A stretch of 64,000 bases of DNA, taken from Pegea sp. RAD2-039 (taxonomy: Eukaryota; Chordata; Thaliacea; Salpida; Salpidae). The notes beneath the pieces are model-generated. The model was not told the DNA's origin, did not search any database, and saw only the letters and a program-made list of their open reading frames with translations. A program made the position numbers and the translations under genes. Within the stretch, counting starts at the first letter, position 1; each line of letters opens with the position of its first letter. Positions 1 through 64,000 of this stretch are shown here, one piece after another. The stretch spans positions 1 through 64,000 of the forward strand of contig JAQGEQ010000349.1 of NCBI GenBank assembly GCA_034620365.1. The letters are read 5' to 3'.

Positions 1-198
1 TCATAAGTAAGAAATTGTTAGAAAATTATTTAATAAACTCAATGACTTTTTGGTTAAGATCATTTTTATGTTAGTTACAAACAAATTAACCAACTAGTCA
101 AACAACTAACTAATAAATTACTAATCATATATAAAGAAATTCAAACTTTATTTAATAACTAGTAATCTAATCAACAGCTAATTTACAAATTAAATAAT

Positions 199-1290
199 CA
201 GAACCATCTGACTAACCATCTAACTAACCATCTAACTAACCATCTAACTAACCATCTAACTAACCATCTAACTAACCATCTAACTAACCATCTAACTAAC
301 CATCTAACTAACCGTCTAACTAACTATCTAACAACCATCTAACAACCATCTAACAACCATCTAACTAACCATCTAACTAACCATCTAACTAACCATCTAA
401 CTAACCATCTAACAACCATCTAACAACCATCTAACTAACCATCTAACTAACCATCTAACAACCATCTAACAACCATCTAACAACCATCTAACAACCATCT
501 AACTAACCATCTAACTAACCATCTAACTAACCATCTAACAACCATCTAACTACCATCTAACAACCATCTAACAACCATCTAACAACCATCTAACAACCAT
601 CTAACAACCATCTAACTAACCATCTAACAACCATCTAACTAACCATCTAACTAACCATCTAACTAACCATCTAACAACCATCTAACTAACCATCTAACTA
701 ACCATCTAACTAACCATCTAACTAACCATCTAACTAACCATCTAACTAACCATCTAACTAACCATCTAACTAACCGTCTAACTAACTATCTAACAACCAT
801 CTAACAACCATCTAACAACCATCTAACTAACCATCTAACTAACCATCTAACTAACCATCTAACTAACCATCTAACAACCATCTAACAACCATCTAACTAA
901 CCATCTAACTAACCATCTAACAACCATCTAACAACCATCTAACAACCATCTAACAACCATCTAACTAACCATCTAACTAACCATCTAACTAACCATCTAA
1001 CAACCATCTAACTACCATCTAACAACCATCTAACAACCATCTAACAACCATCTAACAACCATCTAACTAACCATCTAACTAACCATCTAACTAACCATCT
1101 AACTAACCATCTAACAACCATCTAACAACCATCTAACAACCATCTAACAACCATCTAACTAACCATCTAACAACCATCTAACTAACCATCTAACTAACCA
1201 TCTAACTAACCATCTAACTAACCATCTAACAACCATCTAACAACCATCTAACAACCATCTAACTAACCATCTAACAACCATCTAACAACC
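199..1290. repeat. 11/12-bp minisatellite in an EGF-gene intron
   Basis: Tandem copies of CCATCTAACTAA (12 bp) and CCATCTAACAA (11 bp) run without interruption up to about 14 bases before an exon of the EGF-repeat gene, so the array lies in an intron. Rare variants (CCGTCTAAC at 312 and 774; the CTACCATC join near 551 and 1013) recur about 462 bp apart, showing a higher-order duplication. Bases 1-198 are AT-rich intronic or intergenic sequence with no recognisable feature. Confidence 0.95.
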
Positions 1291-1303
1291 ACTTATGTTT
1301 TAG

Positions 1304-4300
1304 CAGCGGGGATTTTGAATGCAAATGCAAATTTGGTTACTTTTCTACATTTTGTGAGCTTCACGCGGACACAAGTTGTTCAAATAAAGGAGTTTATGAA
1401 ATAGACAAAGAACGTTGCAAATGTGAACCTGGTGCTTATGGAGCATTTTGTTCTAAACAATTTGATTGCGCCGTTCATGGATGTCTGTAAGTACCTCATA
1501 TGTTGATGATGTCATATGTTGATGACGTCATATAGTAACAACGGAGTGTGTAAACCTTCGTGGAGATCCTGTGAGTGTCCTTCACCTTATTTGGGAACCA
1601 GGTGTGAATATGATGATGGTGTCTGTGTTCAAGGAGTCAATTGCGGATTAAATGGAATTTGTAAGAGTCATGTAAGTTGTTGTGACGTCATCATGTGGTT
1701 TGATGTGACGTCATCATGTGATTCATTTTATGACGTAATATGGTTTAGTTCATCATTTTATATCAGTAACCAATTGCAAAAAAGCTCCCAGTTGATCCCA
1801 GCATCCAACAAAAGCTCCCAATTGATCCCAGCATCCAACAGAAGCTCCCAGTTGATCCCAACATCCAACAAAAGCTCCTAGTTGATCCCAACATCCAACA
1901 GAAGCTCCCAGTTGATCCCAACACCCAACAGAAGCTTCCAGTTGATCCCAGCATCCAACAAAAGCTCCTAGTTGATTCCAACATCCAACAGAAGCTCCCA
2001 GTTGATCCCAACATCCAACAAAAGCTCCCAGTTGATCCCAACATCCAACAAAAGCTCTCAGTTGATCCCAACATCCAACAGAAGCTCCCAGTTGATCCCA
2101 GCATCCAACAGAAGCTCCCAGTTGGTTCCAACATCCAACAAAAGCTCCCAGTTGATCCCAACACCCAACAGAAGCTTCCAGTTGATCCCAACATCCAACA
2201 GAAGCTCCCAGTTGATCCCAACATCCAACAAAAGCTCCCAGTTGATCCCAACATCCAACAGAAGCTCCCAGTTGATCCCAACATCCAACAGAAGCTCCCA
2301 GTTGATCTCAACATCCAGCAGAAGCTCCCAGTTAATCCAAACATCCAACAGAAGCTCCCAGTTGATCCCAACATCCAACAAAAGCTCCCAGTTGATCCCA
2401 ACATCCAACAGAAGCCCCCAGTTGATCCCAACATCCAACAGAAGCTCCCAGTTGATCTCAACATCCAACAGAAGCTCCCAGTTGATCCCAACACCCAACA
2501 GAAGCTCCCAATTGATCCCAACATCCAACAGAAGCTCCTAGTTGATCCCAACATCCAACAGAAGCTCCCAGTTGATCCCAACATCCAACAGAAGCCCCCA
2601 GTTGATCCCAACATCCAACAGAAGCTCCCAGTTGATCCCAACATCCAACAGAAGCCCCCAGTTGATCCCAACATCCAACAGAAGCTCCCAGTTGATCTCA
2701 ACATCCAACAGAAGCTCCCAGTTGATCCCAACACCCAACAGAAGCTCCCAATTGATCCCAACATCCAACAGAAGCTCCTAGTTGATCCCAACATCCAACA
2801 GAAGCTCCCAGTTGATCCCAACATCCAACAGAAGCCCCCAGTTGATCCCAACATCCAACAGAAGCTCCCAGTTGATCCCAACATCCAACAAAAGCTCTCA
2901 GTTGATCCCAACATCCAACAGAAGCCCCCAGTTGATCCCAACATCCAACAGAAGCTCCCAGTTGATCTCAACATCCAACAGAAGCTCCCAGTTGATCCCA
3001 ACACCCAACAGAAGCTCCCAATTGATCCCAACATCCAACAGAAGCTCCTAGTTGATCCCAACATCCAACAGAAGCTCCCAGTTGATCCCAACATCCAACA
3101 GAAGCCCCCAGTTGATCCCAACATCCAACAGAAGCTCCCAGTTGATCCCAACATCCAACAAAAGCTCTCAGTTGATCCCAACATCCAACAGAAGCTCCCA
3201 GTTGATCCCAACATCCAACAATGGCTCCCAATTGATCCCAACATCCAACAGAAGCTCCTAGTTGATCCCAACATCCAACAGAAGCTCCCAGTTGATCCCA
3301 ACATCCAACAGAAGCCCCCAGTTGATCCCAACATCCAACAGAAGCTCCCAGTTGATCCCAACATCCAACAAAAGCTCTCAGTTGATCCCAACATCCAACA
3401 GAAGCTCCCAGTTGATCCCAACATCCAACAATGGCTCTCAGTTGATCCCAACATCCAACAGAAGCTCCTAGTTGATCCCAACATCCAACAGAAGCTCCCA
3501 ATTGATCCCAACATCCAACAGAAGCCCCCAGTTGATCCCAACATCCAACAGAAGCTCCCAGTTGATCCCAACATCCAACAAAAGCTCTCAGTTGATCCCA
3601 ACATCCAACAGAAGCTCCCAGTTGATCCCAACATCCAACAATGGCTCTCAGTTGATCCCAACATCCAACAGAAGCCCCCAGTTGATCCCAACATCCAACA
3701 GAAGCTCCCAGTTGATCTCAACATCCAACAGAAGCTCCCAGTTGATCCCAACACCCAACAGAAGCTCCCAATTGATCCCAACATCCAACAGAAGCTCCTA
3801 GTTGATCCCAACATCCAACAGAAGCTCCCAGTTGATCCCAACATCCAACAGAAGCCCCCAGTTGATCCCAACATCCAACAGAAGCTCCCAGTTGATCCCA
3901 ACATCCAACAAAAGCTCTCAGTTGATCCCAACATCCAACAGAAGCCCCCAGTTGATCCCAACATCCAACAGAAGCTCCCAGTTGATCTCAACATCCAACA
4001 GAAGCTCCCAGTTGATCCCAACACCCAACAGAAGCTCCCAATTGATCCCAACATCCAACAGAAGCTCCTAGTTGATCCCAACATCCAACAGAAGCTCCCA
4101 GTTGATCCCAACATCCAACAGAAGCCCCCAGTTGATCCCAACATCCAACAGAAGCTCCCATTTGATCCCAACATCCAACAGAAGCTCCCATTTGATCTCA
4201 ACACCCAACAGAAGCTCCCAGTTGATCCCAACATCCAACAGAAGCTCCCAGTTGATCTCAACATCCAACAATGACTCAATATGTTTCTTTCAAGATATTT

Positions 4301-6292
4301 TTAAATTAGTTTTTCTTATCATCTTACAACGAGTTAAAAAGTTTGATTTTGAAAACCCACAATCCCACTAAATTGAAATCAGTATCATCTTCACTACAGG
4401 GACACTACACAACTTGTATCTGTGATCAATTCTACGGTGGACCGAGGTGTGAAGAATATTACCCGGAGTGTGAATGTCAAAATGGAGGCAGCTGTTATAA
4501 AGGTAAAAATATCATCAGATTTGCAAGTTCAATAACCAACATGAAAATAGACTTTAAAAATCGGTTGCTATGTGACTGTGGTAGAACTGGTTACCATGGT
4601 GACTTATGTGACATCAAAAATGTTATTTGTGGAGATGTAGCTTGTAAAAATGGCGGAACTTGTATCAAAATAAAAGAAGATGAAGATATGTGTAAATGTA
4701 CTGCTGGTTTCAAAGGATTACTTTGTGAAGTAAGAAGCTTGAATGACGTCACGCATGACGTCATTACTCATCTATTGTAGATCGCTATTGATCCTTGCGA
4801 TATGTTGCCATGTTTGAATGATGGTTCGTGTGTTCATCAACCAGAGTTGAATTTGACCGGAAATTTAAGCGCAATTTCCGGCGAAGAAAATTATTTTTGC
4901 CGATGTAGAAAAGGTTTGTTGTTAGATCGATTAAAATATTTTTTATGATTTGAATTCTCAGGTTACCATGGCAAACATTGTGAGATTAACAGGTCATGTG
5001 ATGACGTCATCTGTTCGATTACATCTACATGCATTACCACAGCAACTGGTTACCAATGCGAATGTCTGCCTGGTTTCTATGGCGACAAGTAAGCAGCTGG
5101 TTGTTGCTACGACAATTGGTTGCTATGACAATTGATTACAGATGTACTGACGTAGATGAATGCTTACGTCATCAACCATGTGGTAACCATGGAGTTTGTT
5201 CAAATACAGCTGGAAGTTACGAATGTAAATGTCAAGAAGGATTCGTCGGGCGAAATTGTAGTTTTCAAAAAAATGATGTTTGTGACGTCACAACCAATCA
5301 GCCGTGTCAAAATTCGGGGAAATGTATTTTAAATTCAGACCAGGTTCGATTTGATAATTTAAAGACGATGACGTCATCAGCAGCAATATTTTAGTCTTTA
5401 AGTTGTGAATGTTCTGGAAATTATTTTGGTGAAGTTTGTGACAATCCAAATATTTGTCAGACTAAAAATCCGTGTAACTCAAACGCTACTTGCATCTCTG
5501 TCGGCGTGAGTAGAAGTGATGACGTCACCGACACGTCATCAGCAGCTTTTTTTGTAGCTTTCTTACAAATGTCAATGTCCGCTTGGTTATACTGGCAAAC
5601 ATTGTAACTTGATGACGTCATGTAACGTAACATCGTGTAACCATGGTAACTGTGAAAGATGCTTGGATTCGAGATGTTTAGAAATAGATGAAGGAAATGA
5701 GGACGAAGCATTTGCTTGTTTCTGTCACCGACATTTTGTTGGTCCACAATGTTCTGTGGTCAGTGGACTGATTTTGAAAAAAAAAATTATTTTAATTTTA
5801 AATTAATCAAATTTTTGTTGAAATTAAAGTTTTTAAAAATTGAAAAAAATAATTTTTAGATAAGTTGAATCAAATTATTATTTATATTTCATTAAACGTG
5901 AAAAAGGGTGCCTCATAAAAGCGCCTCTCGCTAACACAAATGCTCACAATTAATATAATATTTAATTATTATAAAAAATATTATTATAAAAATATTATTA
6001 TATTATTAAATAATATTATAAAGTTTATATAAAAAAAGTTTTGATAATTATATCAAAAAAACTGTTTTATTTTTTAAATGATTTAAAACTGAAATTTATG
6101 AATTTTTTGAAGAGATCATATACCAGTGTCTTGGAAGAGATCCAAAAAAGTCATCAGATACTTTTTTTTACATCTCTCATATCATCTTCATCTCTTCTGT
6201 TTTCAATTTTTATAATTCTTACTTTTAAATTTGTACAAAATTGTAAATTGTATCAGAAAAAGAAATCTATTTTAAAAGTTTTCCAAAAATAA
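1304..6292 (+). CDS. EGF-repeat membrane or secreted protein, 3' part (partial)
   Basis: The gene begins left of the window. Exons with matching phases: 1304-1486, 1536-1671, 4400-4729, 4781-4913, 4962-5088, 5142-5343, 5395-5505, 5558-5758. They encode about eleven consecutive EGF modules, each with six cysteines and the CxCxxGyxGxxC ending. The module starting DVDEC near 5150 is a calcium-binding type. The short introns contain TGACGTCA, and the intron 1672-4399 is filled by a 30-bp array. The end is uncertain. Reading through exon 8 reaches a stop at 5806 with no membrane span. Alternatively a splice to about 6114-6292 adds a hydrophobic segment (FFTSLISSSSLLFSIFIILTF) followed by basic KLYQKKK, as expected for a type I membrane protein with a short tail. 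I favour the second model, but its acceptor is poor in pyrimidines. EGF arrays are generic adhesion or receptor modules, so no orthologue is assigned. Confidence 0.8.
1782..4275. repeat. 30-bp minisatellite filling an EGF-gene intron
   Basis: About 83 copies of a 30-bp unit (core GTTGATCCCAACATCCAACA followed by GAAGCTCCCA). Variant units (CCCCCAG, CTCCTAG, ATGGCTC) recur in blocks of 210, 240, 270 or 330 bp, so the array grew by duplicating multi-unit blocks. The unit is ten codons long, so any frame free of stops stays open for hundreds of codons on either strand. Those frames are not counted as genes, because spliced EGF exons flank the array. Confidence 0.97.
5886..5965 (+). repeat. Dispersed repeat, short copy of hairpin-ended family
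   Basis: GGGTGCCTCATAAAAGCGCC and the following CTCTCGCTAACAC match the reverse complement of 7297-7360 and sequences at 38644 and 47885. Here the copy lies in the presumed last intron of the EGF gene. The end carries a small inverted repeat (GGTGC...GCACC or GCGCC). Confidence 0.7.
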
Positions 6293-11337: not shown

Positions 11338-13550
11338 TGTTTACATTCAGAGTTAGATCAGTTCATTCTGATATCTTCCATCTCTTCTTATGAAGATCCA
11401 AGCATGACTTCATCTTCTCATGATTCTGATCTTCAAACTTTCTAACATCTTGTCTCAGAGTTACATCAGTTCAATCTGATATCTTCCCATCTCTTCTTAT
11501 GAAGATCCAAGCATGACTTCATCTTCTAATTATTCTGACCTTCAAACTTTCTAACAACTTGTCTCAGAGTTACATCAGTTCAATCTGATATCTTTCCATC
11601 TCTTCTTATGAAGATGCAAACATGACTTTATCTTCAAATTATTCTGATCTTCAAACTTTCTAACAACTTGTCTCAGAGTTACATCAGTTCAATCTGATAT
11701 CTTCCATCTCTTCTTATGAAGATTCAAACATGACTTCATCTTCCAATTATTCTGATCTTCAAACTCTCTAACAACTTGTCTCAGAGTTACATCAGTTCAT
11801 TCTGATATCTTCCATCTCTTCTTTTGAAGATTCAAACATGACTTCATCTTCCAATTATTCTGATCTTCAAACTTTCTAACAACTTGTCTTAGAGTTACAT
11901 CAGTTCATTCTGATATCTTCCCATCTCTTCTTATGAAGATTCAAACATGACTTCATCTTCCAATTATTCTGATCTTCAAACTCTCTAACAACTTGTCTCA
12001 GAGTTACATCAGTTCATTCTGATATCTTTCCATCTCTTCTTATGAAGATCCAAACATGACTTCATCTTCTAATTATTCTGATCTTCAATCTCTCTAACAA
12101 CTTGTCTCAGAGTTACATCAGTTCATTCTGATATCTTTCCATCTCTTCTTATGAAAATCCAAACATGACTTCATCTTCCAATTATTCTGATCTTCAAACT
12201 TTCTAACAACTTGTCTCAGAGTTACATCAGTTCATTCTGATATCTTCCATCTCTTCTTTTGAAGATTCAAACATGACTTCATCTTCCAATTATTCTGATC
12301 TTCAAACTTTCTAACAACTTGTCTTAGAGTTACATCAGTTCATTCTGATATCTTCCCATCTCTTCTTATGAAGATTCAAACATGACTTCATCTTCTAATT
12401 ATTCTGATCTTCAAACTTTCTAACAACTTGTCTCAGAGTTACATCAGTTCAATCTGATATCTTTCCATCTCTTCTTATGAAGATCCAAACATGACTTCAT
12501 CTTCTAATTATTCTGATCTTCAATCTCTCTAACAACTTGTCTCAGAGTTACATCAGTTCATTCTGATATCTTTCCATCTCTTCTTATGAAAATCCAAACA
12601 TGACTTCATCTTCCAATTATTCTGATCTTCAAACTTTCTAACAACTTGTCTCAGAGTTACATCAGTTCAATCTGATATCTTTCCATCTCTTCTTATGAAG
12701 ATCCAAACATGACTTCATCTTCAAATTATTCTGATCTTCAAACTCTCTAACAACTTGTCTCAGAGTTACATCAGTTCAATCTGATATCTTCCATCTCTTC
12801 TTATGAAGATGCAAACATGACTTCATCATCTAATTATTCTGATCTTCAAACTCTAACAACTTGTCTCAGAGTTACATCAGTTCAATCTGATATCTTCCAT
12901 CTCTTCTTATGAAGATTCAAACATGACTTCATCTTCAAATTATTCTGATCTTCAAACTTTCTAACAACTTGTCTCAGAGTTACATCAGTTCAATCTGATA
13001 TCTTTCCATCTCTTCTTATGAAGATCCAAACATGACTTCATCTTCTAATTATTCTGATCTTCAATCTCTCTAACAACTTGTCTCAGAGTTACATCAGTTC
13101 ATTCTGATATCTTTCCATCTCTTCTTATGAAAATCCAAACATGACTTCATCTTCCAATTATTCTGATCTTCAAACTTTCTAACAACTTGTCTCAGAGTTA
13201 CATCAGTTCAATCTGATATCTTCCCATCTCTTCTTATGAAGATCCAAACATGACTTCATCTACTAATTATTCTGATCTTCAAACTCTCTAACAACTTGTT
13301 TCAGAGTTACATCAGTTCATTCTGATATCTCCCATCTCTTCTTATGAAGATGCAAACATGACGTCATCTTCTAATTATTCTGATCTTCAAACTCTCTAAC
13401 AACTTGTCTCAGAGTTACATCAGTTCATTCTGATATCTTCCATCTCTTCTTATGAAGATGCAAGCATGACGTCATCTTCTAATTATTCTGATCTTCAAAC
13501 TTTCTAACATCTTGTCTCAGAGTTACATCAGTTCATTCTGATATCTTCCT
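11338..13550. repeat. ~108-bp satellite array, about 20 copies
   Basis: Each monomer holds the landmarks CAGAGTTACATCAGTTCA, CTGATATCTTCC, CATGACTTCATCTTC and TCTAACAACTTGTCT. Diagnostic variants recur about 435 bp apart (CTTTTGAAGATTC at 11821 and 12256) and ATGAAAATCC at about 440 and 540 bp spacing, indicating higher-order blocks of four or five monomers. Most monomers carry TGACTTCA, one change from TGACGTCA. The monomers at about 13359 and 13467 carry the perfect octamer. Confidence 0.97.
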
Positions 13551-18306: not shown

Positions 18307-18311
18307 GATCG

Positions 18312-42330: not shown

Positions 42331-42336
42331 TACAAA

Positions 42337-49380: not shown

Positions 49381-49453
49381 TGTTTCAGCCCGGGCTCGAA
49401 CCGGGGACCTCTCGCGTGTGAGGCGAGCGTGATGACCACTACACTACTGAAAC
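49381..49453 (-). tRNA. trnV-CAC: tRNA-Val (CAC)
   Basis: Minus strand: acceptor GTTTCAG with CTGAAAC, D-arm TAGTGTAGTGGTCATCAC, anticodon loop CTCACACG with CAC, T-arm GGTTCGAGCC, discriminator A, T9 terminator. Confidence 0.97.
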
Positions 49454-49799: not shown

Positions 49800-50475
49800 T
49801 ATATTTCACCAATGACGTCATCAACTACGCGAACAAAGAAACTTTTTCAAACTGACTTTCTTAATGGCGCGATTATCAAACCACTAGTAGCGCTAATGAG
49901 AAAAGTACAAAGTTTTGTAAACAAGTAACACAGCGTCCTTAGTGATATCAAAAAGAACTGATTTCTTGTTCGTAGTCCTACAATAGGCTGTTCTGTTTGT
50001 GACGTCATCACATCGAGCTGGTTGAAATTTTCAGATAAAATTTTAATGATTTGGTTTGTTTGGTGTTTGACTTTCTTCCAATTTGTTTGTTTTTGTGTTT
50101 GTAGAATAATAAAAGTTATTTATTTGGAACTTTAAGAAAAAGTTTTATTACTTTTGAAAGTTTTGAAAGTTTTGAAAGTTTGAATTTTTTGTGTTTTTTT
50201 TTTCAGTTTAAATTTAAGAATTTAAAATTTTTTTATATTTATTTATATTTTTTTATATTTTTTTATATTTTTTTATATTTTTTTATATAAGACCCATTTA
50301 ATTTCAATTAAATTATTTTAATTTATTTCTAATAAACTACAAACTTTGTAAAGTTAATTGATTTAACAAATTGATGACGTCACCCGCGAGGGGCTTTTCA
50401 GGAAATGTAGTGTTTACAACGTGAAAAATACAAATTTCTCTAAAAAGTTTCAAAACAAATAAAATAAATTTCAAA
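49800..50475 (+). promoter_or_regulatory. Upstream region of the nesprin-like gene
   Basis: TGACGTCA reappears here (49812, 50000, 50371) after being absent for about 15 kb. A 10-11-bp TTTTTATATT array occupies 50215-50290. The last CRE lies about 100 nt before the ATG. The exact transcription start is not visible. Confidence 0.4.
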
Positions 50476-53400
50476 ATGTCGAAACAAAACCGGTTATCGT
50501 TGGTTGTAGACAAAGTGAAAGTAAGCTCATCTAAGCGTCATGACGTCATCAAATGACGTCATCATTACAGCTCGATTTGGGGGAAACTGCAAGAAAGCGA
50601 CAACCATCAACAACCCTTGGAAGAACTTCGATGAATTTGCATAAAGTCGCGCAGCTTTTACAAAGTAAGTATGACGTCATCAAGTTTTGGTAGTGACGTC
50701 ATGTGAAAGAGGGAGTTGTTTGGTTTATAATTTAAATTGGATCGATTTTGATTGACCACGTGACTTGTGGCTAATAACTGTTCGGTTACTAAGCAACTTC
50801 ACGCTTCACTGAACACGCCGATTTATCGCGAGAGTTTTTAATAAAGATAAATAAATGATTCCAAACTATTTTTTTATAAATTTTTTCACCGAAGTTAAAA
50901 AAGCTTTTTAGAAAAGTTACAAAAAAACTGTTAATGTTTTAATCTTATCAAAATCTTTGCAATGTTTCATTATTCGAAAACTGATTTACATAGCTCGCTT
51001 TTATGACGTCATCGTCGCTTATTGTGTTACAGTGCAGCAGGAAGCGGTTCAAAAACGAACTTTTACTCGTTGGATGAACGCGCATTTGATAAAAGTAAAA
51101 AATTTTTATAAAAAATTTATGGATTTTAAAAGTTAACTAAAATTTAAATCACAAAATAAGATAGAATTGCCGTAGTCCCAGGTGGTCTAGTGGTTAGGAT
51201 TCGTGGCTCTCACCCACGCGGCCCGGGTTCGATTCCCGGTCTGGGAACTAATTTTTTTTTCTTTTTTTTTAGTGGAAACCTCCTTTAAAAGTAAATGATT
51301 TATTTGAGGATATTAAAGATGGAACAAAATTATTAGCGTTGCTTCAAATTTTATCGAGGGAGAGACTGGTAACTTATCAATGTTCCATTTTTCTTACTTT
51401 TTAAAGAAAGTTAAATCAAATATTGAATTATCTTCAAAGTAAACAGAGAACTAATTTGTCTTTTTGTTTATTCACCAAATAAAAGTTTTATTGTAGCTAA
51501 TTCCAAACATGTAAAAAGCCAAATTATCCCAAAATCTTATTTTACAGCAAGGTGAAACAGGCCGAAACTTAAAAAAGGTCCACCATCTAACTAACATCCA
51601 AGTCTGTTTACAATTTCTTGAAACCAAAAAAGTAAACACTTTCATTGAAAGTTATAAATTTTAATTGGAAACACTTTGATTCAATTTCCAGATTAAATTG
51701 GTCAATATAAACCCAACTGATATTGTGAATGGCAAACCTTCTATTGTGTTAGGTCTTATTTGGACTTGTATTCTATTTTTCCAGGTATGAATGACGTCAT
51801 AATAATGTTTCTAAACGATTTTCTCAAATTTTAATGATAATTGTGTGAAGTAACCTCACATTTCACGTAACAAACATTAACTAAATCGTGACATCACTAT
51901 GACGTCACACAGATTCGTCGCGAACTGCTTCCAGTAAATACTCCGGTAAGTTTTAAGACATGCACATCATGACGTCATTGTCACTTAGCAACCCACTCAC
52001 AAACACATTTAGTTATTTAGCTTTTCACGCATGGGTGCACACGAGTTTCATTTCATTCATTAAAAAGATAAAATTGATTTTCAATTGACTTGTTGCCATG
52101 ACAACAGATCGAAGAACTCACTAGCAACCTCGCCCTTACCAGCGACCTATCGGTCAGCAATTCAAGTCTGGACAGCGCTACTGATGATGGACCGGTCCGT
52201 AAGAAGAAAGGGGCCAGGGCGAAGTGGCAAGGAGCGGCCACTAAAGCCTTGTTACAATGGGTCAAGAAAAAGACCAACAAGTAAGTGGTCCCCAACTTAT
52301 GGTTTTTTATGGAATTTTTTGAGGTTTTTTTTCATATTTATAAAAATTTTAAGTTAATTTGAAGACCTCTGGTGGGCCAAGGGGTTGCTACCTGTCCCTT
52401 AGCAACAAAAACATATGTTGGTGGTCAAGAAGATCATCAGCCCTGGTATGCAGTCCATATAGGACACAAAAATCAGATATGAGACCTACAACCTGTACTT
52501 TTCACTTCAATATGAAAGAAATTAGTTTTTTTGCTTCTGAATTGAGTTTTGTTCATCAAATTGCTGATTGATTTGTTGAAGATGGAGCAAGATCTTCCAA
52601 GAAAAGTCCCAGTTTGCTCCTCCAGAAGAGATGAAGACTTTCGAGTGTCGAGATGTAGAGTTTTGATCCTTAAATTCATCCATGAATAATAAATTTGATC
52701 CTTTTATCATCAGAAGTAGAAAAAGGGGGTCTTGATGCACTGATCATTAGCTTAAAGATCACTGATCTCTAGGAAGATCTTGTAGGAAGGTCTTCAGGAA
52801 GGTCTTCAGGAAGATCTTTTAGGAAGATCATTTAGGAAGATCTTTCAGGAAGATCTAACTGTAAAATTCATTGAATATTTCAACAAATTATGACGTCACT
52901 ATTTTGATGACGTCAGCGCGCTACCGGTTCAAGTAAACGATTTCGGCGCGAGTTGGAAAGATGGAATCGCTTTCAACTCCATGATCCATTCAATTAATCC
53001 CAACCTCATCAACATCGATGACGTCATGAAAGCGACGAATCGCGAAAACCTGGAACGAGCTTTCGCTACTGCTGAACAACATCTGGGTATTCCCCGTTTA
53101 CTCGAACCAGAAGGTATGACATCATTAATCGGTAATCAGGTGATGACGTCATCATGTTACAGATTTGGAAGCGGATAAACCCGACGAAAAATCGATTATG
53201 ACGTATGTAGCGCAGTTTGTACGTCATTGCAACGACACTAATGACAACGCGGGTGTTCCCCAAGTATGACACCGATGGCTGTGACGTCATATGATGACGT
53301 CATCTATTTATAGGTTGATGATGATACGATTTTATATGAGGATATCATGGCTTGGTTGTCAGAACGCGATGAAGAATTGAAAGAAATCCACAAGAGACGA

Positions 53401-56400
53401 AAATATCAAACTCAAGATTTTATTTCAAACCAAAAGTTAAGAGCCGAGATACCTCCGAAGATCGCACAGGTGATGATGACGTCATCGATTCTAAAAGAAT
53501 CTCATAAATTGAAAAAAAATTATTTTTTGATTTATGAATTTTTCTCGATGTTTCATGATGATGACGTCATTATTTCAGGTGAACAAATTACGCGAAAGAT
53601 TTGATAGCGGAGAATTATCAACAATTTCAAAAGAGCAATTGGAAACACTGGAAAAATTATGTGAGAAAGTCGTCGAATCAAATAAGGTGAAAAATAGTGT
53701 TTCCAAACAACAAAAATTTAAATTGAATTTTTTGACCCAGAAATGGCATGTGGCCCTGGACAGTTCTTTGCCTGGACAACTTGGACGATTTGGAGTTTGG
53801 CTTCATCAAGCTGAAGATCACGTGATCAACTCATCTAGTAGTAGCGATGCTGATGACGTCACCGATGATGAAACAGCTGCTGAAATAATTCATGAAAAAA
53901 TTGTGAAACATCAAGTAATGACGTCATCGAATTAACACGTGCGACAACTAATGATGACGTCATAGGAGATGTTCAAGGACATCGAACAGATGACGCAACT
54001 CTTCGCGAAGGGCAAGCGATCTTCAAAGTTCTCGGGCAAGAAGATCTCTGAGGAGCAACTGGAAGAGTTAACAAGGCGGCTTGAAAGTCAGTGATGACGT
54101 CATCGTGTGTTGTCATGACGTAGTTGTTTACAGATGTTAAAGTGACGTCACAACGACGTCATTGCGAATTAGAGATGAAAGAAACGAAAAGAAAATTAGA
54201 AATTAATTTAAAAAAAGCGGAAGCGAAATTGGCGATATGGAATTGCAAGCATAAAACTGAACGCGCGGTCGATGACGTCATCATCGATTATAAGGTACGA
54301 TGACGTCATCATCTCGAGTAAAGACGTCATTGAGAAGTTTTGTAGAAATGTGTTGAAGATGAAGGATTGATGAAGGAAATTGAAGAGCTGGTTGCTAAGT
54401 TACAAGACACCGGAAGTAGATTGATGCAGTTGGAGATAAGTGATGAAGATCAGAGAGATCTTCAAGAGCTAATCTCTGATAAAGAAGAACAGGTTTGAGA
54501 TTGAATGACGTCATCGACATTTTTATGACGTCATCCTTAAAGGCTAAGGCGATATGTGGTGAAGTTGCTGATGTGATGACGTCATTAAACCAATTGTCAA
54601 ACCATTGGAAAAGTTATGATGAAAATTTAGCAAAAGTGTTGCCATGGTTACAAAAGTCATCGGAAGTAATAGAAGGAAATCAATCAATTGATAAAAAGGT
54701 TTCCAAATATTTTTCACAATTTTTTAAAAATTTTTCTGAATGGAAACACTAAAATAAATTTATTAATTTTTCGAAGGATTTTCTTCGGGAATTTCCCCAA
54801 TATAAAAAAGCATTTGAAGAACTTCAATCGTCTGCACAATTTCTTATCGAAAACTGTGATAGTGACGTAGCTGATGACGTCATTAACGCTATGTCGAGTG
54901 TTAATGATCAAGCAGAAGTTGTGTTTGGTGGATGTGAAGACTTGATTAGATCTCAAGTTGCAGAAGAACAATTAGAGATTTTAGAGTTAGAAATGGAAGA
55001 TTTAGAAGAAGATTTGAAGGAAATTGAAGATTTTTATAGTTTGGAAACACCTTTGCATCAACTAGCTACACGAATAGAAGAAGTTGAGGTGAAAAAAAGT
55101 GTTTCAAAATATTTTTAAAAAAAATTTTTAATGATTTTGAAAAAAAATTTTTTTTAGAATTCTCAAAGAAAAGTTGAAGAAATCGAAAAATCATTGAAGC
55201 GTATCCAAACAGAAGCACAACATCTTAGTAGTGATGACGTCAACAACCACGTGATGCCACACATCAATGACGTCATCAATAGAATCAACCGAATCCAAGA
55301 AGCAGCAGAAGAAGAGATGAGAAGATGTGAAGATCTTCAAGACCCCATCAGAGAGATCGAAGATCAGCTAAAAGTGATGACGTCACAAATTGAAGAGGTA
55401 GAAAGAGAAATTGAAGAATTAAAATCGAGTGATGAAGATGTAGAAACAAAACATCAAAAGCACGAAGTAAGTGACGTCATCAGTCTGAAAGTTTTTATGA
55501 CGTCATCACTTGTTTCAGGATTTAATTACAAAATTGGGATCACTTCGAAATGACTTAAGAAGCATTATTGGTCGAATTGACGTCATACGCGATTCTTACG
55601 CAAACGTGTTTGTGAATGAGTTTGATGACGTCATCAATGTGACGTCATCACGTCTCGAACACGTTTTGAGTCAAGCAAATATTTTGCGGCCTCGATTAGC
55701 AGAAGGTGTAATGGCTGTACGTGACTTCAGAAGTTCAGTTGCTGATATGGAAGCGTGGATGACGTCATCAAAGAACGCGATTACCGGTGATGACGTCAGA
55801 AGTCGATCATTCGCTGAAAGACTCGAAGCACATCAAAAGATTCTCGACTCTGTTGGTGATTCACCAATTTCAAAATTAGTTACTGCTGCTGAGCAAATGA
55901 GACAATCGTATGGTTGCCATGGTGATGACGTCACTGAACGCACGTCACAAATACAGCGCGAGTATAAAACGTTGTTAAAAACAGCCAATCAGAGTCTTGT
56001 ACATCTACGGTAAGTGATGACGTCATCGACTATGACGTCAACGTTTGTTGTGAATAGATTGGAAGAAGCTGAAACGGAGTATCTGCAAATTATGACGTCA
56101 TCACGTGACTACTTACAACAAGTTGCCATGGCAGCACCCAAAGATGATGATGTCACTACTGATGAACTAATCGAGCAACATGAGGTTTGATGACGTCATC
56201 ATGGGGTATTTTGTTGTAATTAATGACGTCATAGGAGCGAATGAACGAGCCTTTGCTACGAGTTTGTTACTTGTTGGAGAAAATGGAAGATTTATCCAAA
56301 AGATTTGAAGATGAAGAAGATCAAAAGAAGATCTTGAAAAGAATTGAAAGATTTCGTCAAGATTATGAAAATGTTCTTGCTGAAGAAGAACAAACGCGAG

Positions 56401-59400
56401 GGTTTGTGATGACGTCATTGTTTGATTTGATGACGTCACTTTTGATTGCAGACGCTTGCTACGATTGCCGCAAATGTTGCAAGATTTTGAGCAAGGAATA
56501 AAAAAGTTGAAATCTTGGACTAATAATATGGAAGCTGCGATGAAAAAAATCCACGGAGAGATACAACCGGATGTTGATGTCTTCCAGGTAGAAGAGATGA
56601 CATCATCAACATGATGACGTCATCAGTATTTTTAAGCAGAAAATTCGTGAAAATTTTGAGAAGCTTTTACAAGAAGAAAGCGAGATTAAATTTGCGATTG
56701 AAACTTTGCAAAGATTATTGGATCAGATGACAAATTATCTATCACGTGATAAGCTACAACAAATGAAGGTGATGACGTCATATATGTTAGATTTGAGCTT
56801 GATGACGTCATTTTAGGATGAGTTGGTGTTGTGGAATGGAAATATAAAATCGTTGTTGAATGCATCTTCTTTGAGTAAGAAGCAAATTGTGAAAGTGGAA
56901 AAGTGTTTCCAATTTCATTCTACAGCTGAAGTAAGTTTTAAAAATGTTGTTTGGAAACACTAAATGTTATAAAATTTCGAAATTTTGATTCAATTGTTGT
57001 TAAATTGAAAATTTTTTTTTACAAAATTTAAACATTTTGAATTTTGAAAATTTTTTTGTTTTTCAGTTTGTTTTTCAGTTTTTATTTCAGTTTGTTTTTC
57101 AGTTTGTTTTTCAGTTTGTTTTTCAGTTTGTTTTTCAGTTTGTTTTTCAGTTTGTTTTTCAGTTTGTTTTTCAGTTTGCTTTTCAGTTTGTTTTTCAGTT
57201 TGTTTTTCAGTTTGTTTTTCAGTTTGTTTTTCAGTTTGTTTTTCAGTTTGTTTTTCAGTTTGTCTTTCAGTTTGTTTTTCAGTTTGTTTTTCAGTTTGTT
57301 TTTCAGTTTGTTTTTCAGTTTGTTTTCAGTTTGTTTTTCAGTTTGTTTTTCAGTTTGTTTTTCAGCTTGTTTTTCAGTTTGTTTTTCAGAATTTTGAATA
57401 AAATTTCAAAAATATGAAATTTTTTATAAAAATTAAGGAATTATTGAATTTTAATTTCTAAAAAAATCTCAAAATTTCTTTCAAAAGTATTTATTATCTA
57501 TTTTTCAAAAGTTACTTATTATCTAATTTCTAAATTTAAAAAATAAATTTTTTAATTTTTTAATCAGGAAACACTGAAAATGATTGAAGATAAAATGATG
57601 AATTTTAAAGATCTCATCGAGAAGCAAAGAATCAACAAAATCTCGAATCAGGAAGATGCAAACGTCATCGTCTCTTCACTACAAGTTCGATGACGTCACC
57701 AAAATCTCAAACAAATTAATGACGTCACAAATTATTAATAGGCAATTTTTAATCAACTCGATTTGATGACATCACGTGTCAGTGATAACGTCACGACGGG
57801 CAAATCGCTTTATGCAAATGAGAAAAGTGCTTCTTTTATTCAAGATGACGTCATCAAGTTAGAATCGGTTTTGGAATCGAGTCTGAATGACGTCACAGAT
57901 CAATCTAATCATTTTCAAGTGACGTCATCAGTACAACAATCATCAGATCATTAATGATGACTTTTACAGTTAATTGCTTCGTCATGGCAACAATATGAAA
58001 GTATTCGTGACGTCATCATCAAGTTATTTGAACAAACTTCTCTGATTGGACGAAATTTGAGGATGAGCACATTGAGCGCTGTCGAGCGTGAACTCGCGAC
58101 GTCCAATCAAATCGCTGATGACGTCATGACATGTGAAGAGATGATCGATAAATTGTGTCAACTGAGTGACGTCATCAACGCTGATGTGACTGACGTCACT
58201 CGTGACGAATTATCCAATCAAATCGTTGATTTTGGGATTCAATTAGAGAGCATCCGGGAGAGATCTTCAGCGGAGGTTGAGAAGATCTCAAAGATCAAAG
58301 ATGATTGGATCGGATGTGAGCAGGACATGATGAAGATCGATGAATGGATTCGAGTTGTTTATGACGTCATGTCGCGATTGGAATCGTCACAAGAGGGAGC
58401 TGAAGAATTATTTCAAAAAGTTCGAGTTCAAGTTGGAATGATTGCTCAAAAAGAAATCGAAATCTCGAATATCGAAGCTCGTTGTGACGTCATTGAAGGT
58501 GTCGAGACGCCAAGTACACTAGATGCTAATTTAGCTAATTTAAGAACAAAGTGGCAACAAGTAAGTGTATTGACGTCATCATACACGTGATCATCATGAC
58601 GTCATCATCTGCAGCTTCACAACCAAATGGAAGCCTTAGCAACGAGTATTGGGGAACATTTGAGTCATCAGACGAAATTTGAAGGAGTAAAAAAAGAGGT
58701 AGAAGAAGAGTTAAGATCAGCAGAAGATCATCTTCAGATGTCACTTGCTCCTTGCTCTTCACTTCAAGATGTAGAAGATAGAAAATCCGATCATCTGGTT
58801 TGTTTATTGATGACGTCATTCATTCACATTATAAGTTGATGACGTCATAACTCTTACACAGAAATTCGCGAATAGTTTAGAGCAGATACGGACGGCTCTG
58901 ACGTCATTACAGACTGAATCGAAACTCGTGAAAGATTCGAACGCAGCTGAAATGATTCGACGAAAACTTCTAGAACGGTTGGTTGCTATGACAACCGTAT
59001 TTCATGACGTCACTGTTGTGTGTTTGTTCAGCTATAATGACGTCATCAATCAATCACGTGAGCGCAAGAAGCGTTTAGAAGAAGCGACGAAGCGATGGCG
59101 ACGTCATCAAAAAGATTTATCAGCTGTTGAAAATTTTATTAAAAAGTGATGACGTCATCAACGCTTTTAGTGTCACTGAATGGTTGTTTTCAGATGTGAT
59201 GACGTCACAAGTAGTGATCGAGGCGAAGGACTTCCTGGTGATCAGCAAAAATTAAAAAATGAATTGGAAACACTCCGAAAAATGAAAGATTCAATTCCGA
59301 CTTTTCTGGTTGGAAACCCTTTTTTCGTTTTTTTTAAATTATTTTAATGACGTCATCATTTAAAGGCATCGAGTCAGGGATTCATGAATGGAATCGAAGA

Positions 59401-59909
59401 GCTTGAAAAGATGATTCCAATCGATTGTGACGTCATGTTACTACAAGTGGAAAAACTGGTTTGTTCGGAAATCTCCGTAACTACAACCTGTAATGACGTC
59501 ATAAATCGCGCAGAAACACGCGATTGACGTGTTGCCACAGCAACTAGCAGATCGTGAACGTATCGTGACGTCAGCATTAGAAAGTCACATTGAATATGCT
59601 GAATCAATTGAAGCATTTACTAAATGGTTGTTGCAATTTGAAAGAACATTACGTAACAACACTGACGTCACACTTGATGACGTCACACCTGCGGCGGAAT
59701 TAGTTCAGGTTGGTTACGTCATTTCTTGATTTTTAGCGGAAGATAAAGACGAGTCATGACGTCATCGTTTTATTGAAAGATATTTTGAAAGATGAATTTA
59801 GTGATGACGTCATCGTTTTATTGAAAGATATTTTGAAAGATGAATTTAGTGATGACGTCATCGTTTTTTATAATGAGCTTAAACAGAAAGAGAAATTTAT
59901 TATTCATTA
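50476..59909 (+). CDS. Nesprin-like actin-binding protein (CH-CH + spectrin-like)
   Basis: Multi-exon. First exons, frame-checked: 50476-50520, 50571-50664, 51033-51094, 51273-51368, 51548-51631, 51692-51784, 51913-51945, 52108-52280, 52917-53113, 53163-53263, 53314-53469. They encode CH1 ([30 protein letters not shown]) and CH2 ([48 protein letters not shown]), closest to SYNE1/2 in wording and with a nesprin-like insert between them. More than 20 further short exons give Glu/Lys-rich helices with spectrin-repeat character ([27 protein letters not shown]). In the family the CH pair binds F-actin and a C-terminal KASH tail anchors the nuclear envelope. No KASH or membrane segment is visible here. 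The last join would need a 28-nt intron (59702-59729). Otherwise the protein ends near 59729. CRE sites lie in nearly every intron and many exons. Confidence 0.85.
51176..51247 (+). tRNA. trnE-CUC: tRNA-Glu (CTC) inside a nesprin-like intron
   Basis: Acceptor TCCCAGG with TCTGGGA, D-arm TGGTCTAGTGGTTAGGA, anticodon loop CTCTCAC with CTC, T-arm GGTTCGATTCC, discriminator A. It sits in the same orientation within the 178-nt intron between host exons 3 and 4. The T-run that would terminate Pol III (from about 51251) is also the polypyrimidine tract of the host 3' splice site at 51272. Confidence 0.97.
52770..52856. repeat. ~16-bp GGAAGATCTT repeats in an intron
   Basis: Six or seven imperfect copies of AGGAAGATCTT or AGGAAGGTCTTC in the longest intron of the CH region (52281-52916). 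The remainder of that intron is moderately GC-balanced without a recognised feature. Confidence 0.85.
57058..57389. repeat. 12-bp array TTTTTCAGTTTG in a nesprin-like intron
   Basis: About 27 copies of TTTTTCAGTTTG, each a perfect-looking 3' splice site (pyrimidine tract plus CAG). The genuine acceptor appears to be TTTTTAATCAG near 57568, before an exon beginning GAAACACTGAAAATGATTGA. Confidence 0.96.
59756..59862 (+). repeat. 48-bp in-frame duplication including a CRE
   Basis: A 48-bp unit (TGACGTCATCG, TTTTATTGAAAG, ATATTTTGAAAG, then ATGAATTTAGTGA) is present twice plus the start of a third. If translated it gives [16 protein letters not shown] twice at the C-terminus of the nesprin-like protein. 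Confidence 0.9.
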
Positions 59910-59970
59910 AGAAGAAGAAAATATAACTTTGAGCTGAAATGACGTCATCATTTAAAAAAGCCATTTTCGG

Positions 59971-61621
59971 TCATTTTTCTATCGATTCAATTTCCTGCTT
60001 TTTCTGGGGATTTCCCTTTCTGGGAATAAAATAAACTTCTTCATAAATATCTGAAGCGGGGAAAAACCTTTGACTACAGCTCGAATTACCGCGTTCGATT
60101 GGATTGCAAATGACGTTGTGGGCATATACATGTGTGACGTCATCACTAACTGACGAATTTGAACCAGTAATTGAAACAAAAGTATTTTGGTAATCTGGTG
60201 TTGCCATCCTTGGTATTTGATAAGTTTGAACGATGCAAATACTAGGCGAAGTCGGGATGTTGGCGTACGAGGCTTGTGACGTCATAGCGAAGTCGCCACG
60301 ACGTATACTCGAGAAAGTTTTGCAAAGTGTCCCGACCGGGGTTGGTGGGGGCGAAATTTTGGGTGGTACAAGGGCCCCACAGTCAGATACGTTTGTGACA
60401 ATTGCAGTGACGTCATTAGTTGTGATGTCATTAGAGGTAGTGACGTCATCATTTTTTGTGACGTCATTAGAGGTAGTGACGTCATCGGCGAGAGTCATGA
60501 CTGATTGATTTTGTTCCGATGACATCTTTTTCTTTTTGAGACGTTTTCTGAGATTTGATGATGACGTCATAAATTGGTTTAATTAATGACATAAAATCAA
60601 ACCTTATCTCCATGGCAACTACAAAAAAAGCGATGAAAAGAAACAGTGACGTCATCACAAACACGACCACTAGAGGTCCCTCGAGAACAGTTTCGTTGTT
60701 TTCTGAGTTGAAATCGAAATATTGAAAATTAAAAAAAAAAATTGAAAACTAAAAAAATATAAATAATATAAATAATAATTATAATAAATTTATAAATTTA
60801 TAAATTTGAAACCTAAAAATTTGCATTTCAACTAAATTATTAACTGGAACATCAAACTTAACAAAATTAAAAAAATAATAAATAAATAATAATAATAAAT
60901 ATTTATCTACAAAAATTATTTTATAAATAAATAATATAAACAAAAAATCATGAAAATAATTTTTCCGAAAATGACCTTGAAAAGTTTTGACTTTGAGAGT
61001 ATAGACTTGTGAGTCATCACCACCCATTATGACGTAAAAGAAACCACGTGACAACGATCCAATCACGTGATGTAGTCGAACAGAATAGAGAAAAGAAGTT
61101 CTACAGGAAACGATGACGTCATACCATCTATTTACTACAAATGACTTACTTGAAAGTGATATTGTTTGCGTCATAAGTTGTTTTGATGACGTAATCATCG
61201 CTGATGCATCTATAATCATCAATTTTAACCAATCGGCGTTTACTTGCTACGTCGCCAAGGAAACGAAATCTTGGAGGACACAAGACGCGATAAAAGAAGA
61301 CCTTAGATCCTTCTTGAAAAATTTTAAACATTCCAGTTGGCTTGATGACGTCAATTCCATCGCGTCTGTTATATAGAAATATGATGACGTCATCAGATGG
61401 TTTATAAACCAACCCAGTGACGAAGTAATTGTTGAAGTTGTCGGAAGAACTTCCAAATTTCATGGATTGTCCGAAGATGAAGAAATTTGTCGGAAAATTT
61501 GTTTCAGATTTCAATAAAGTGTAGATGACGTATCTGTCGCTTGCTTGTGATGACGTCACTACTTGTTTGGTGTAGCTGACGTCATCATAATGATGAACTT
61601 CAAGCTGGGAGTTGATGGTAG
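59971..61621 (-). CDS. Type I membrane protein with Vps62-like ectodomain and Tyr-motif tail
   Basis: Four exons with matching phases: 61621-61150, 61100-60976, 60702-60603, 60547-59971. Upstream exons are missing, since the first one found starts mid-codon after TTTTTTCAG. The ectodomain contains CPPRFRFLGDVA followed by DDYRCISDDYV, resembling the CPPGYVALGDV...RCV..DLV signature of Vps62/DUF946 proteins (similarity by eye). One membrane helix follows (VVVFVMTSLFLFIAFFVVAM), then a basic stop-transfer (EIRKRLKKKK). The cytoplasmic tail of about 190 residues has a CRE-derived DDVTTSNDV tract and tyrosines in YANI, YQNT and IYEEV contexts; YxN is a Grb2-type SH2 motif. It converges on the nesprin-like gene with only 61 bp between stop codons. 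Function unknown; a receptor is plausible. Confidence 0.6.
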
Positions 61622-61649
61622 CTGAAAAAAGTTTGATTTGGGATTTAAA

Positions 61650-61775
61650 TGAAGATCTCATAAAGATCTTAGGGTCTTTGGGTCTTTGGATCTCATAAAG
61701 ATCTTAGGGTCTTTGGGTCTTGGGTCTCATAAAGATATTGGATCTTGGGATTTAATTTTAGAATAAAGATCTGAT
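61650..61775. repeat. Short AGATCT/GGGTCTTTGG repeats
   Basis: Three imperfect copies of CTCATAAAGATCTTAGGGTC with TTTGGGTCTTGG, presumably within an intron of the flanking minus-strand gene. 61776-62250 is otherwise AT-rich with four CREs or fewer and no clear exon. Confidence 0.8.
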
Positions 61776-62251
61776 ATAAGATCTCCTTCAAATTTGATAA
61801 AAAAGTATTTAAATTATCAGATAATCAATAATAATGATAATAATTATTTATTTATTATTAACTTTTCTAAACTGATTAAAAAAATACTAAAAAATTAGAA
61901 TTAAAAACCTGAAAATATTAAAAGGAGAAAAAATTGGAACATCTTGAAAAATAGAAACTGAAAAACTGATTTAAAAACAAAATATTCATAAATATCATCA
62001 AACATATCGTGACGTCATCAAATCATGAGGTGAATATAGTCAGAACACATGACGTCATCAAGAAAAAGTTGTTTAACTCAAAAAAGTTGAAACAGAGTTC
62101 ATCTGGAATAATTTAGAAAATGAATCATCAAAAGAAGGAATATTTGAAGATTTTGAAATCATGATAATTACTTCAGTCAATTTCCGATTTAATCTTTAAA
62201 CAAAAAGTTCAAAAGTTTAATTTTCTTTTCAATGACGTCATCAGCGATTTA

Positions 62252-63161
62252 TTAAGTGGAAGTTGACGCTTGAGTGATTTTGTAGAAAGCGAGATTGGGT
62301 TTAAAAACTGATTCCAATTTTAAACTGAAATCATCACTGTATTGATGATTCATGATTCCTTTCGCCTAAAATTTGAATTTAAATTAATTTAATTGAAGAA
62401 AATCAGGTTCTGGAACGTAAATTGTGAATGAAGTTTCAAATATCTCTGTTCAAAAGTTAACAAGTTGCTTGTAGCAACAATTTTTCATCACTTTTATTTC
62501 AACAACAAAAATGTAAATAAAAAACAAACAGAAAGATAACAAACTGTGAGTTTAACAATAACAAAAAACTATTGTTTCAACAGTAAGTAAGAAAAACAGA
62601 TAAGTTGACAGCAGCGTGGTCGACAGAACTTAAATGGTTGAGGTCACAAGGACGTGTCCTAGAAACTGTTCAAAGAATTATACTGGCCACTATTTTGGTC
62701 CATGTGGTTTCCCCGGAAACCAAAATCGCAATAACTGGTCACATTAGCTAAACGTAACCAGAGTAACCCCAAAATTGATGACGTCATTCGTGGTCTCACA
62801 TATTAGATGATTTCGGGAAAGTCCCCCAAAACAGGGACTGTTGTTTCCCACCGTCCTGGTCCTGATCTTGTGATTACTTGGGACCTCTTTGAAGTCCTCA
62901 TCAACTTCAATAGAGACGATCACTGATGACGTCATCAACGTCTTTAGATGTTTTTGTCGAAATATTTGCAAAAATGAAATTGAAACTTTTGATCTAAATC
63001 GAATCTGAGATATTATCTATGATGACGTCATCAGTTTTCATGAGTCAAGATAATGACCATCGCTTTGGTCAGCGCGATATATCCATCGGGACAGATGACG
63101 TCATAAAGTTTGAAGAGATTGTTGAGATCAAATACAGAATCAAATACAGAAGAATCAACAT
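62252..63161 (-). CDS. Unrecognised gene, possible Vps62-like paralogue (partial model)
   Basis: Candidate exons: 63161-63058, beginning after a TTACTAATAG acceptor and containing LYDVICPDGYIALTKAM; an open block 63004-62748 with VDEDFKEVPSNHKIRT and RNHLICETTNDV; 62445-62417; and 62365-62252, ending SVFKPNLAFYKITQASTST and TAA. The joins 62417/62365 and 63058/63004 preserve frame. The CPDGYIAL and HLIC...NDV blocks parallel CPPRFRFLGDV and YRC...DDYV of the next gene on the same strand, so the two may be paralogues. No membrane segment was found. The middle exon boundaries are guesses. Confidence 0.35.
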
Positions 63162-63519
63162 CTATTAGTAATCAGAAAGTTTTATAAATTTCTAAAAATC
63201 AAAAATTGTTTAGTTTAATTTCACTCGTTAACAAGAAAGTCTGAATAAAATCAACTTCTTAAGATCCACCAGAAGCACCTTACTGATCTCTAAGAAGTAT
63301 CTTACTGATCTCTAAGAGCTCGCTTCAAGTTTAGATCAACTTTTCTACATCACTAATAAATAAAAAAAACAATCTTAAAAAAAAATTGATTTATTTACTA
63401 AACACTTAAATTTCAATAAAATTTGAATTCAGTGAATTTCAACAAAAACTTTTTTATAAAAAAAATGTTTCCAAATTTATCTTTAAAATTGATAAATTGA
63501 AAAAAAGGACATTAAACCC

Positions 63520-63952
63520 TTAAACATAAATAGGTGCGACTGGGACAGGGTCCTGTGGTGCCGATGATGAAACCAAAACATGATTTCCGAAATGATTTAA
63601 TCGAAAATAATTGATCTGATCTTCATCTGAGCTGATTGTTTGATAGATTTGCTCCATGCTCACTTTATCTTCATTTTTACAACGAAATCGAAAGTTTTTA
63701 TCAAATTTTTTGAATATGAAATAAAAAGAGATCACAAAAACTGTCGCTACCAAAACAGGGATCAAAATTTTAAGATAATCATGATGATCTTCATCTTGAG
63801 ATTCAATTTGATTGGATTTATCTTCTTTAAAAGTATCTAAAGATACAGGACTCCATTTTAGGGCATAATATTTGATGATTCTAAAAGGGAATCTCACAAC
63901 TAGGAATTGAGATTGATGAAGCTCATACAGATCTGTACTCTTATAATCAAAT
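63520..63952 (-). CDS. Last exon of a type I membrane protein with ITAM-like tail
   Basis: The exon starts at 63952 after a complete 48-nt intron (GTGAGT at 64000, TTCTAG at 63953). The gene continues beyond the right edge. Residues 1-52 are the end of an ectodomain, then an acidic linker (SQDEDHHDYLK), one membrane helix (ILIPVLVATVFVISFYFIF) and a tail of about 65 residues. The tail contains YQTI, eight residues, then YFRL, which fits the ITAM spacing YxxI/L-x(6-8)-YxxL. It ends in PIYV, a hydrophobic end of the PDZ-ligand type. Ligand and family are unknown. The three minus-strand genes here have similar architecture and may form a local family. Confidence 0.65.
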
Positions 63953-64000
63953 CTAGAAATAGAGATGGGTAATGACGTCATCAACGCGATTTTTACTCAC

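Follow-up and report, generated by a model that had tools for sequence, protein, structure and literature searches.

The octamer TGACGTCA in the genes of a Pegea contig

The window studied here covers positions 1-64,000 of contig C24 (158.5 kb) in the assembly of the salp Pegea sp. RAD2-039 (105.7 Mb, 387 contigs), and the element in question is the palindromic octamer TGACGTCA, hereafter the word. Counting showed 221 perfect copies in the window (3,453 per Mb; GC content 31%), where 0.53 are expected by base composition and 0.82 by an order-1 Markov model, in agreement with a preliminary description of this DNA that had put the number at about 220 with fewer than one expected. The runner-up among the 24 palindromes permuting the same four half-letters reached 5 copies.

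Genes were modelled with a finder of our own, which combined a codon score with the splice consensus, scored codons touching the word as zero and admitted GT-AG introns only; the models are approximate, with some genes missed, and introns of other types would be missed too. A first set of models, in which genes were merged, was discarded and replaced by a second. At 1523..5620 lies an EGF-domain gene block with 10 words in exons and in introns of about 50 nt, a placement judged by eye; its EGF Pfam match falls on the open reading frame at 4310-4777, and its forward-strand gene model spans 4541-5806. The word-dense block at 13359..19845, whose CpG observed/expected ratio (o/e) reaches 1.64 per 2-kb bin, includes the intronless gene for IFRD (interferon-related developmental regulator; 18446..19771, reverse strand, 441 aa, Pfam IFRD 9.3e-67). 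An RBM25-type protein of 745 aa, with RRM and PWI domains by Pfam, is encoded in one open frame at 25281..27518 on the forward strand, with 7 coding words. It is followed on the same strand by a HECT-domain gene (28126..32065) with 46 words in the introns and exons of a 16-exon model and a HECT Pfam match on the open frame 30328-30954. The unit of a 33-bp tandem array, called at 32068..32493, contains the word and an X-box-like GTTAC..GTAAC.

As shown by the word positions, a word-free block at 34984..49812 separates dense blocks. It holds the gene for a y+LAT-type amino acid transporter (42337..43770, reverse strand, 477 aa, one open frame), which with 0 words and a CpG o/e of 0.64 is an internal negative control inside the window. 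Its protein is 92% identical to an ENA protein and 57% identical to those of Phallusia and Ciona, whose matches stand above all vertebrates among the best 120 of 2,697. The dense block at 49813..63980 is mostly one gene with a weak spectrin-repeat likeness (Spectrin and SYNE1 below the Pfam cut-offs); its forward-strand model at 50553-60508, with 83 words, is approximate, containing one internal stop and overlapping an open frame on the opposite strand. Two later exons on C24 (locus L036) gave no Pfam match. The word-dense genes that could be named are those for IFRD, RBM25, HECT, sushi-repeat and EGF proteins.

We determined where the words fall relative to the models in the contiguous 84 kb from the start of C24. 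Coding sequence (CDS) contained 126 words in 25.1 kb (5.0 per kb), introns 119 in 10.3 kb (11.6 per kb) and sequence outside the models 79 in 48.6 kb (1.6 per kb), the last class including unmodelled exons because the models are approximate and genes are missed. In a 10-kb stretch at C21:1.75 Mb (L042), the densest found, 61 words lay in 7.5 kb of CDS and 57 in 2.3 kb of intron (25 per kb), with 2 outside the models and 1 straddling. Modelled introns are mostly about 50 nt long. In translation, 120 coding words give DV and 67 give TS, and a stop results in the remaining frame; the presence of words in both frames and in introns argues against a peptide or codon effect. The models thus bear out the earlier placement of sites in introns, in exons and in sequence beyond the gene models, on genes of both strands.

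The excess was also found outside the window. Across the assembly the word occurs 27,792 times versus 969 for the reversed control word (about 29-fold), a mean of 263 per Mb, and the window is 13 times denser than this mean. In the first 1.56 Mb of C1 there are 64 copies per Mb; 254 of the 313 5-kb bins lack the word, the variance/mean is 3.1, and for 45% of copies the nearest neighbour is no more than 500 bp away, versus 6% under Poisson. The C21 stretch has 121 copies in 10 kb, up to 12 per kb, and a 10-kb stretch of C1 has 13, both having been chosen for visible clusters of matches to a 16-letter extension. This rarer extension has 116 forward and 131 reverse matches across the genome and is itself clustered, with nine, for example, at C3:561-791 kb among the matches listed. 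Counts were low in other fetched stretches (L038, 0; L041, 1; L040, 5), in ten RRM loci from the top 16 matches (4 in 14 kb) and in ten homeobox loci from the top 11 matches (0 in 14 kb). A set of 103 kb put aside as word-poor, which takes in loci fetched for holding the word, still contained 17 copies versus 0.63 expected. These results showed that the word is patchy, being concentrated in some gene bodies and domains. A spread over many unrelated genes had been described, and this held for genes of both strands but not for 34,984-49,812, which has no copies, or for the homeobox and RRM loci, with 0-4 per 14 kb.

In dense sequence the median gap between copies is 75-92 bp, and 287 of the 324 copies in the 84 kb lie outside Tandem Repeats Finder calls, so most are single sites and not arrays, as had been proposed. 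The statement that most copies extend to TGATGACGTCATCA proved wrong: only 23 of 221 do, and ATGACGTCAT accounts for 127 of 221. Among the open-access papers listed, none was seen to describe TGACGTCA in a tunicate, although two contain both the octamer and the term "ascidian", mentioning the octamer once each. Separately, at C1:308-337 kb (L029, L032) a sequence of about 620 bp was found twice in opposite orientation (93.9% over 623 bp by blastn), each copy having an open frame with one word.

Anatomy of the word, its companions and its coding copies

The flanks of 287 sites gave a symmetric extended consensus, YGATGACGTCATCR. Position -1 is A (0.72) or G (0.21), position -2 is G (0.52) and position -3 is T (0.60) or C (0.17), with values near background from -4 outward; the left and right flanks are alike and mutually independent, and the numbers agreed within a few per cent at 175 further sites, most of them in the C21 stretch and the rest in other loci that were fetched. 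Variants were then counted in 64 kb of word-dense DNA after masking of tandem arrays. It held 397 perfect copies, and the AP-1 heptamer, a spacing variant, stood at chance (9 versus 7.4 expected). The commonest one-letter variants were TTACGTCA (34) and TGATGTCA (22), versus 2.5 expected each, so the commonest changes fall at letters 2 and 4. Over 12 substitution classes the ln(perfect/one-off word) ranged from 3.2 to 6.7, the upper end being a floor, as two classes with zero copies were set to half a copy. If read as a mutation-selection balance, this logarithm would be the scaled strength of the force keeping the word. Symmetric flanks, AP-1 at chance and scarce variants together suggested that a directional force acts on a bZIP site of CREB/ATF type. 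We take the flank preference to agree with the ATF/CREB consensus from systematic evolution of ligands by exponential enrichment (SELEX), and YGATGACGTCATCR to be the consensus of the ATF2/ATF7/CREB5/JDP2 group.

The minimum spacing between neighbouring copies is 11 bp, partly forced by the flank preference, and no 8-14 bp period exceeded the reporting threshold among pairs up to 300 bp apart. Sense and antisense flanks were alike at -1 and -2 (176 intron and 187 CDS sites); differences at -3 to -5 appeared in introns only (p 0.0008, 0.0008 and 0.014) and perhaps reflect intron composition.

Other palindromes accompany the word. Genome-wide, TCACGTGA was counted 4614 times versus 237 and GTTRCYATGGYAAC 216 versus 15 on both strands, and CAGCTG and TCGCGA were also enriched in dense sequence; we refer to the companions as E-box and X-box-like sites. 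In the first 1.56 Mb of C1, 12 of 41 copies of TCACGTGA lay within 500 bp of a word versus 1.8 by circular shift (about 7-fold), three of these 12 overlapping it. The bZIP_1 profile, the one of two bZIP models that was searched, matched 12 times in the genome, which does not bear out the expanded bZIP family that had been suggested; presumably this number is unexpanded relative to other animals. A CREB-type exon was found at C14:685225, and its structure matches were only to CREB (5zko, 5zk1, 1dh3).

A CREB-type gene, the companion sites and the short introns would all suit ordinary cyclic AMP (cAMP)-responsive regulation, in which dense homotypic CREB enhancer clusters serve a co-regulated gene battery. 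The word also resembles cAMP-response element (CRE)/ATF sites, including homotypic promoter clusters, in its identical core and symmetric A/G..T/C flank. However, unlike promoter clusters it fills introns and exons over whole gene bodies, at 12 sites per kb across a whole gene and with 13 in one CDS, a density that to our knowledge no enhancer cluster approaches; and the IFRD, RBM25, HECT, sushi-repeat and EGF genes share no obvious programme. We regard this explanation as improbable.

IFRD has 13 words in 1,326 bp of one open frame and a single match in the assembly. Its homologue search gave four hits, the best from Clavelina (40%). Against these four relatives the alignment, inspected by eye, showed insertions of 1-2 residues at two words and was otherwise nearly gapless at the words, suggesting that most arose by substitution; spread by insertion of whole words, as had been considered, finds no support here. 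A 15-bp array (ACGTCATCAACAACT) at 19840-20238, just upstream of IFRD, looks grown from a copy of the word. In RBM25, six of the seven words lie at 26728-27050, in a linker that we judge to be apparently disordered. The RBM25 protein is 97% identical to a JGI protein, and its first named relatives are from Ciona and Styela; with the relatives of the transporter and of IFRD, these point to a tunicate host. The next twelve homologues (P0126-P0137) contained no DDV and no MTS[SP], and P0127 and P0133 had looser DV[IT] or [MV]TS matches. DDV is common, with a mean of 0.88 across 120 other homologues of RBM25, and is therefore weak as a marker.

Dispersal as copies of an element, such as a miniature inverted-repeat transposable element (MITE) or an introner, was examined with the flanks of 396 unmasked sites from C24 and the C21 stretch, 45 tandem-array sites having been left out beforehand. 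Word-pair flanks within one intron are alike in direct orientation (275 versus 239 permuted, p 0.0005), some tandem arrays carry the word, and flank likeness of 18-25 out of 40 exceeds a column-shuffled null, for example 46 pairs versus 11 at 22 matches. But near-duplicate flanks (at least 26 of 40 positions) were found at only 4 of the 396 sites, so the sites do not all copy one longer repeat, and the IFRD coding words mostly replace residues without length change. An element was rejected as the general cause and seems very unlikely; local duplication contributes a little to the copies.

RNA stem-loops, in which pairs of the self-complementary word would fold short introns and aid splicing, were also weighed. 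Exactly two words occurred in 44 of 106 introns of 38-75 nt in word-bearing models, where Poisson predicts 24, and the introns with two words form stable folds (mean z -2.8 over 47 introns). Against this, the flanks of paired words do not covary in 52 introns: stem extension was 1.73 versus 2.31 permuted, the fraction of permutations at or above the observed value being 0.9995. Words also stand in the intronless open frames of IFRD and RBM25. Pairing between copies was rejected on the covariation result, and we give the stem-loop explanation hardly any credence.

CpG content, methylase loci and the repair and hotspot alternatives

Word density was compared with CpG content in 1-kb bins of C24. 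Density correlated with CpG o/e outside the words (rho 0.61, 72 bins), the correlation persisted in 46 GC-matched bins (rho 0.46), and none was seen with GpC. CDS with at least 2 words per kb had a CpG o/e of 0.97-1.64, and CDS below 2 had 0.44-0.85 (9 rows per group, IFRD being counted twice in the word-dense one).

A C5 DNA methylase domain is present in seven open frames of the genome, each 832-873 aa long. They include two on C57 (L043; 501-3089, forward, and 6983-9568, reverse), others on C32 (L044) and C249 (L045), and also C52. Four of the seven were translated and look DNMT1-like, one having been checked for BAH domains. By eye, the two C57 frames are inverted with a reverse-transcriptase-like frame between them; such frames could be DNMT1 genes that a retroelement has carried or copied. 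The methylase loci L043-L047 contained 0 words, the three DNMT1-like loci among them 0 in 20.5 kb. Two of these loci gave names from translation with a methylase domain called: a DNMT3-like open frame (L047, 1989-3797, reverse, CpG o/e 0.44) and, at L046, an intron-containing TRDMT1-like gene.

The main rival to selection is a conversion or repair drive, in which germ-line biased repair or short-tract conversion would turn near-matches into TGACGTCA as a functionless by-product. It draws on the strong directional bias over near-matches, clustering that is regional rather than gene-wise, the enrichment of companion palindromes too, the CpG excess in word-dense genes and the several C5-methyltransferase genes, including the seven open frames. 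No repair bias known to us in eukaryotes promotes one specific set of eight letters by transitions as well as transversions, and the three DNMT1-like loci without words speak against a drive as well. One bacterial parallel that had been offered is HIP1 (GCGATCGC) of cyanobacteria, for which a mismatch-repair ratchet has been proposed and which goes with matching methyltransferases and a frequency of about 500-2500 per Mb (PMC4390886). The parallel holds in that both are palindromic octamers in genome-wide excess (here 27,792 versus 969). It fails for frequency and saturation: the word averages 263 per Mb and ranges locally from 0 to 12 per kb, while under the HIP1 model density levels off close to 1 site per kb (PMC4390886). 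For HIP1 the strongest deviation among one-off sites is at the outer letters (PMC4390886), whereas the commonest one-off changes here are at the inner letters 2 and 4. The word, unlike HIP1, also stands in an animal nuclear genome and is patchy by gene and domain, so the likeness is a formal one. Overall, a drive appears unlikely, yet it deserves serious attention.

The word is likewise short, in high copy and presumably kept by some process, as are the DNA uptake sequences of Neisseria and Pasteurellaceae, but its host is an animal, for which we know of no DNA uptake system, and its distribution is restricted to genes. The PATCs of Caenorhabditis elegans, which are periodic A/T runs, similarly spread a signature through the introns and surroundings of a gene class; they are non-coding, whereas the word is a palindrome, presumably a protein site, that is also coding.

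Another possibility is that the words mark hotspots of meiotic recombination and are bound there by an ATF-type dimer. Speaking against this is the expectation that conversion wears away the motifs of active hotspots, whereas here the word accumulates. In Schizosaccharomyces pombe, the CRE-like ATGACGT of M26 can act from a coding region through Atf1-Pcr1 (PMC9775316), and core, protein class and possible coding placement are the same as in our case. In the same review, however, a CRE of ade6 is described as unbound by Atf1-Pcr1 (PMC9775316). Word-dense 1-kb bins of C24 are GC-richer than word-free ones (mean 0.37 versus 0.23), and tandem arrays of at least 5 copies make up 14.9% of the 84 kb versus 1.1% of 54 other loci, both of which would suit hotspots. 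But the densest stretch, L042, has no array of at least 5 copies, and the word-poor L040 is 23.7% array. A hotspot function appears quite improbable.

The long arrays of the window lie at 202-1291 (unit 12 bp), 1782-4270 (30), 11347-13549 (109), 32721-33812 (20) and 48112-48572 (6). Five single tRNA genes (Met, Lys, Ala, Val and Glu) were found at 9638, 38059, 39521, 49380 and 51176. Elsewhere in the genome, repeated frames of about 900-1,020 aa with two partial G-protein-coupled receptor matches each (for example C1:5687606, C47:436575, C81:115942 and C12:387338) are perhaps a multicopy gene or element.

The word as a possible gene-body signal

We infer bZIP binding of TGACGTCA, selection rather than drive and a role in chromatin from the pattern of the sites, and the account as a whole we consider a little short of probable: the copies would be CREB/ATF-type bZIP sites, accumulated mostly by substitution and kept by weak, pervasive selection. 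Recognition by a bZIP dimer, with a force favouring the word, is the simplest account of a palindrome whose flanks are symmetric and graded, whose 8-bp spacing is strict and which occurs regardless of reading frame in introns and tolerant coding positions; CREB/ATF-type recognition fits best among the parallels. A CREB/ATF-type dimer would recognise the word at the DNA level; words would accumulate, mostly by point substitution, in the subset of genes or domains where the intron or protein tolerates them; and weak but pervasive selection, of scaled strength about 3-7, would keep them, for which a large population is assumed. Together with companion E-box and X-box-like sites, the words may hold gene bodies open, unmethylated and transcription-competent, a role that we guess from the CpG association. 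Selection is favoured over drive because the preferred letters resemble a binding profile, other palindromes like transcription factor (TF) sites rise too, and the three sampled DNMT1-like loci, one beside the reverse-transcriptase-like frame, are without words.

Several results weigh against this account. Word density correlated with GC content on C24 (rho 0.74) more strongly than with CpG o/e (0.61). Among the 20 RRM and homeobox loci the word-CpG correlation was weak (rho 0.38, p 0.10), and one gene (L069) is CpG-rich (o/e 1.47) with 0 words. The proposal that housekeeping genes carry the word was not supported by the ten RRM loci; these are mostly without it, so the word-rich set is not defined by the label "housekeeping". 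Of the residues fully encoded by words, the RBM25 relative with 97% identity showed changes at 0 of 14, versus 12 of 104 other linker positions (gaps counted), a difference that was not significant (Fisher p 0.36); 1 of 9 partly word-coded residues changed, from M to V, which would keep the octamer if the codon were GTG. Density is common to unrelated neighbouring genes and looks regional, not gene by gene; this sharing, with the unexplained choice of genes, calls for caution. A drive would leave the same sequence pattern.

The boldest form of the selective account is an animal gene-body code, in which the CREB/ATF palindrome and its companions, substituted through introns and CDS, would keep gene bodies open and unmethylated; we think it doubtful, though plausible enough to pursue. 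Were the word written by a drive instead, we would know of no earlier example of a HIP1-like ratchet in an animal. If the gene-body code is true, the word would be a cis signal for the choice of methylated gene bodies in invertebrates, and a word accompanying CpG-rich gene bodies makes that choice of targets testable. A TF palindrome dense enough to rewrite proteins, as DDVI and MTSS, would represent an extreme of regulatory or chromatin pressure on coding DNA.

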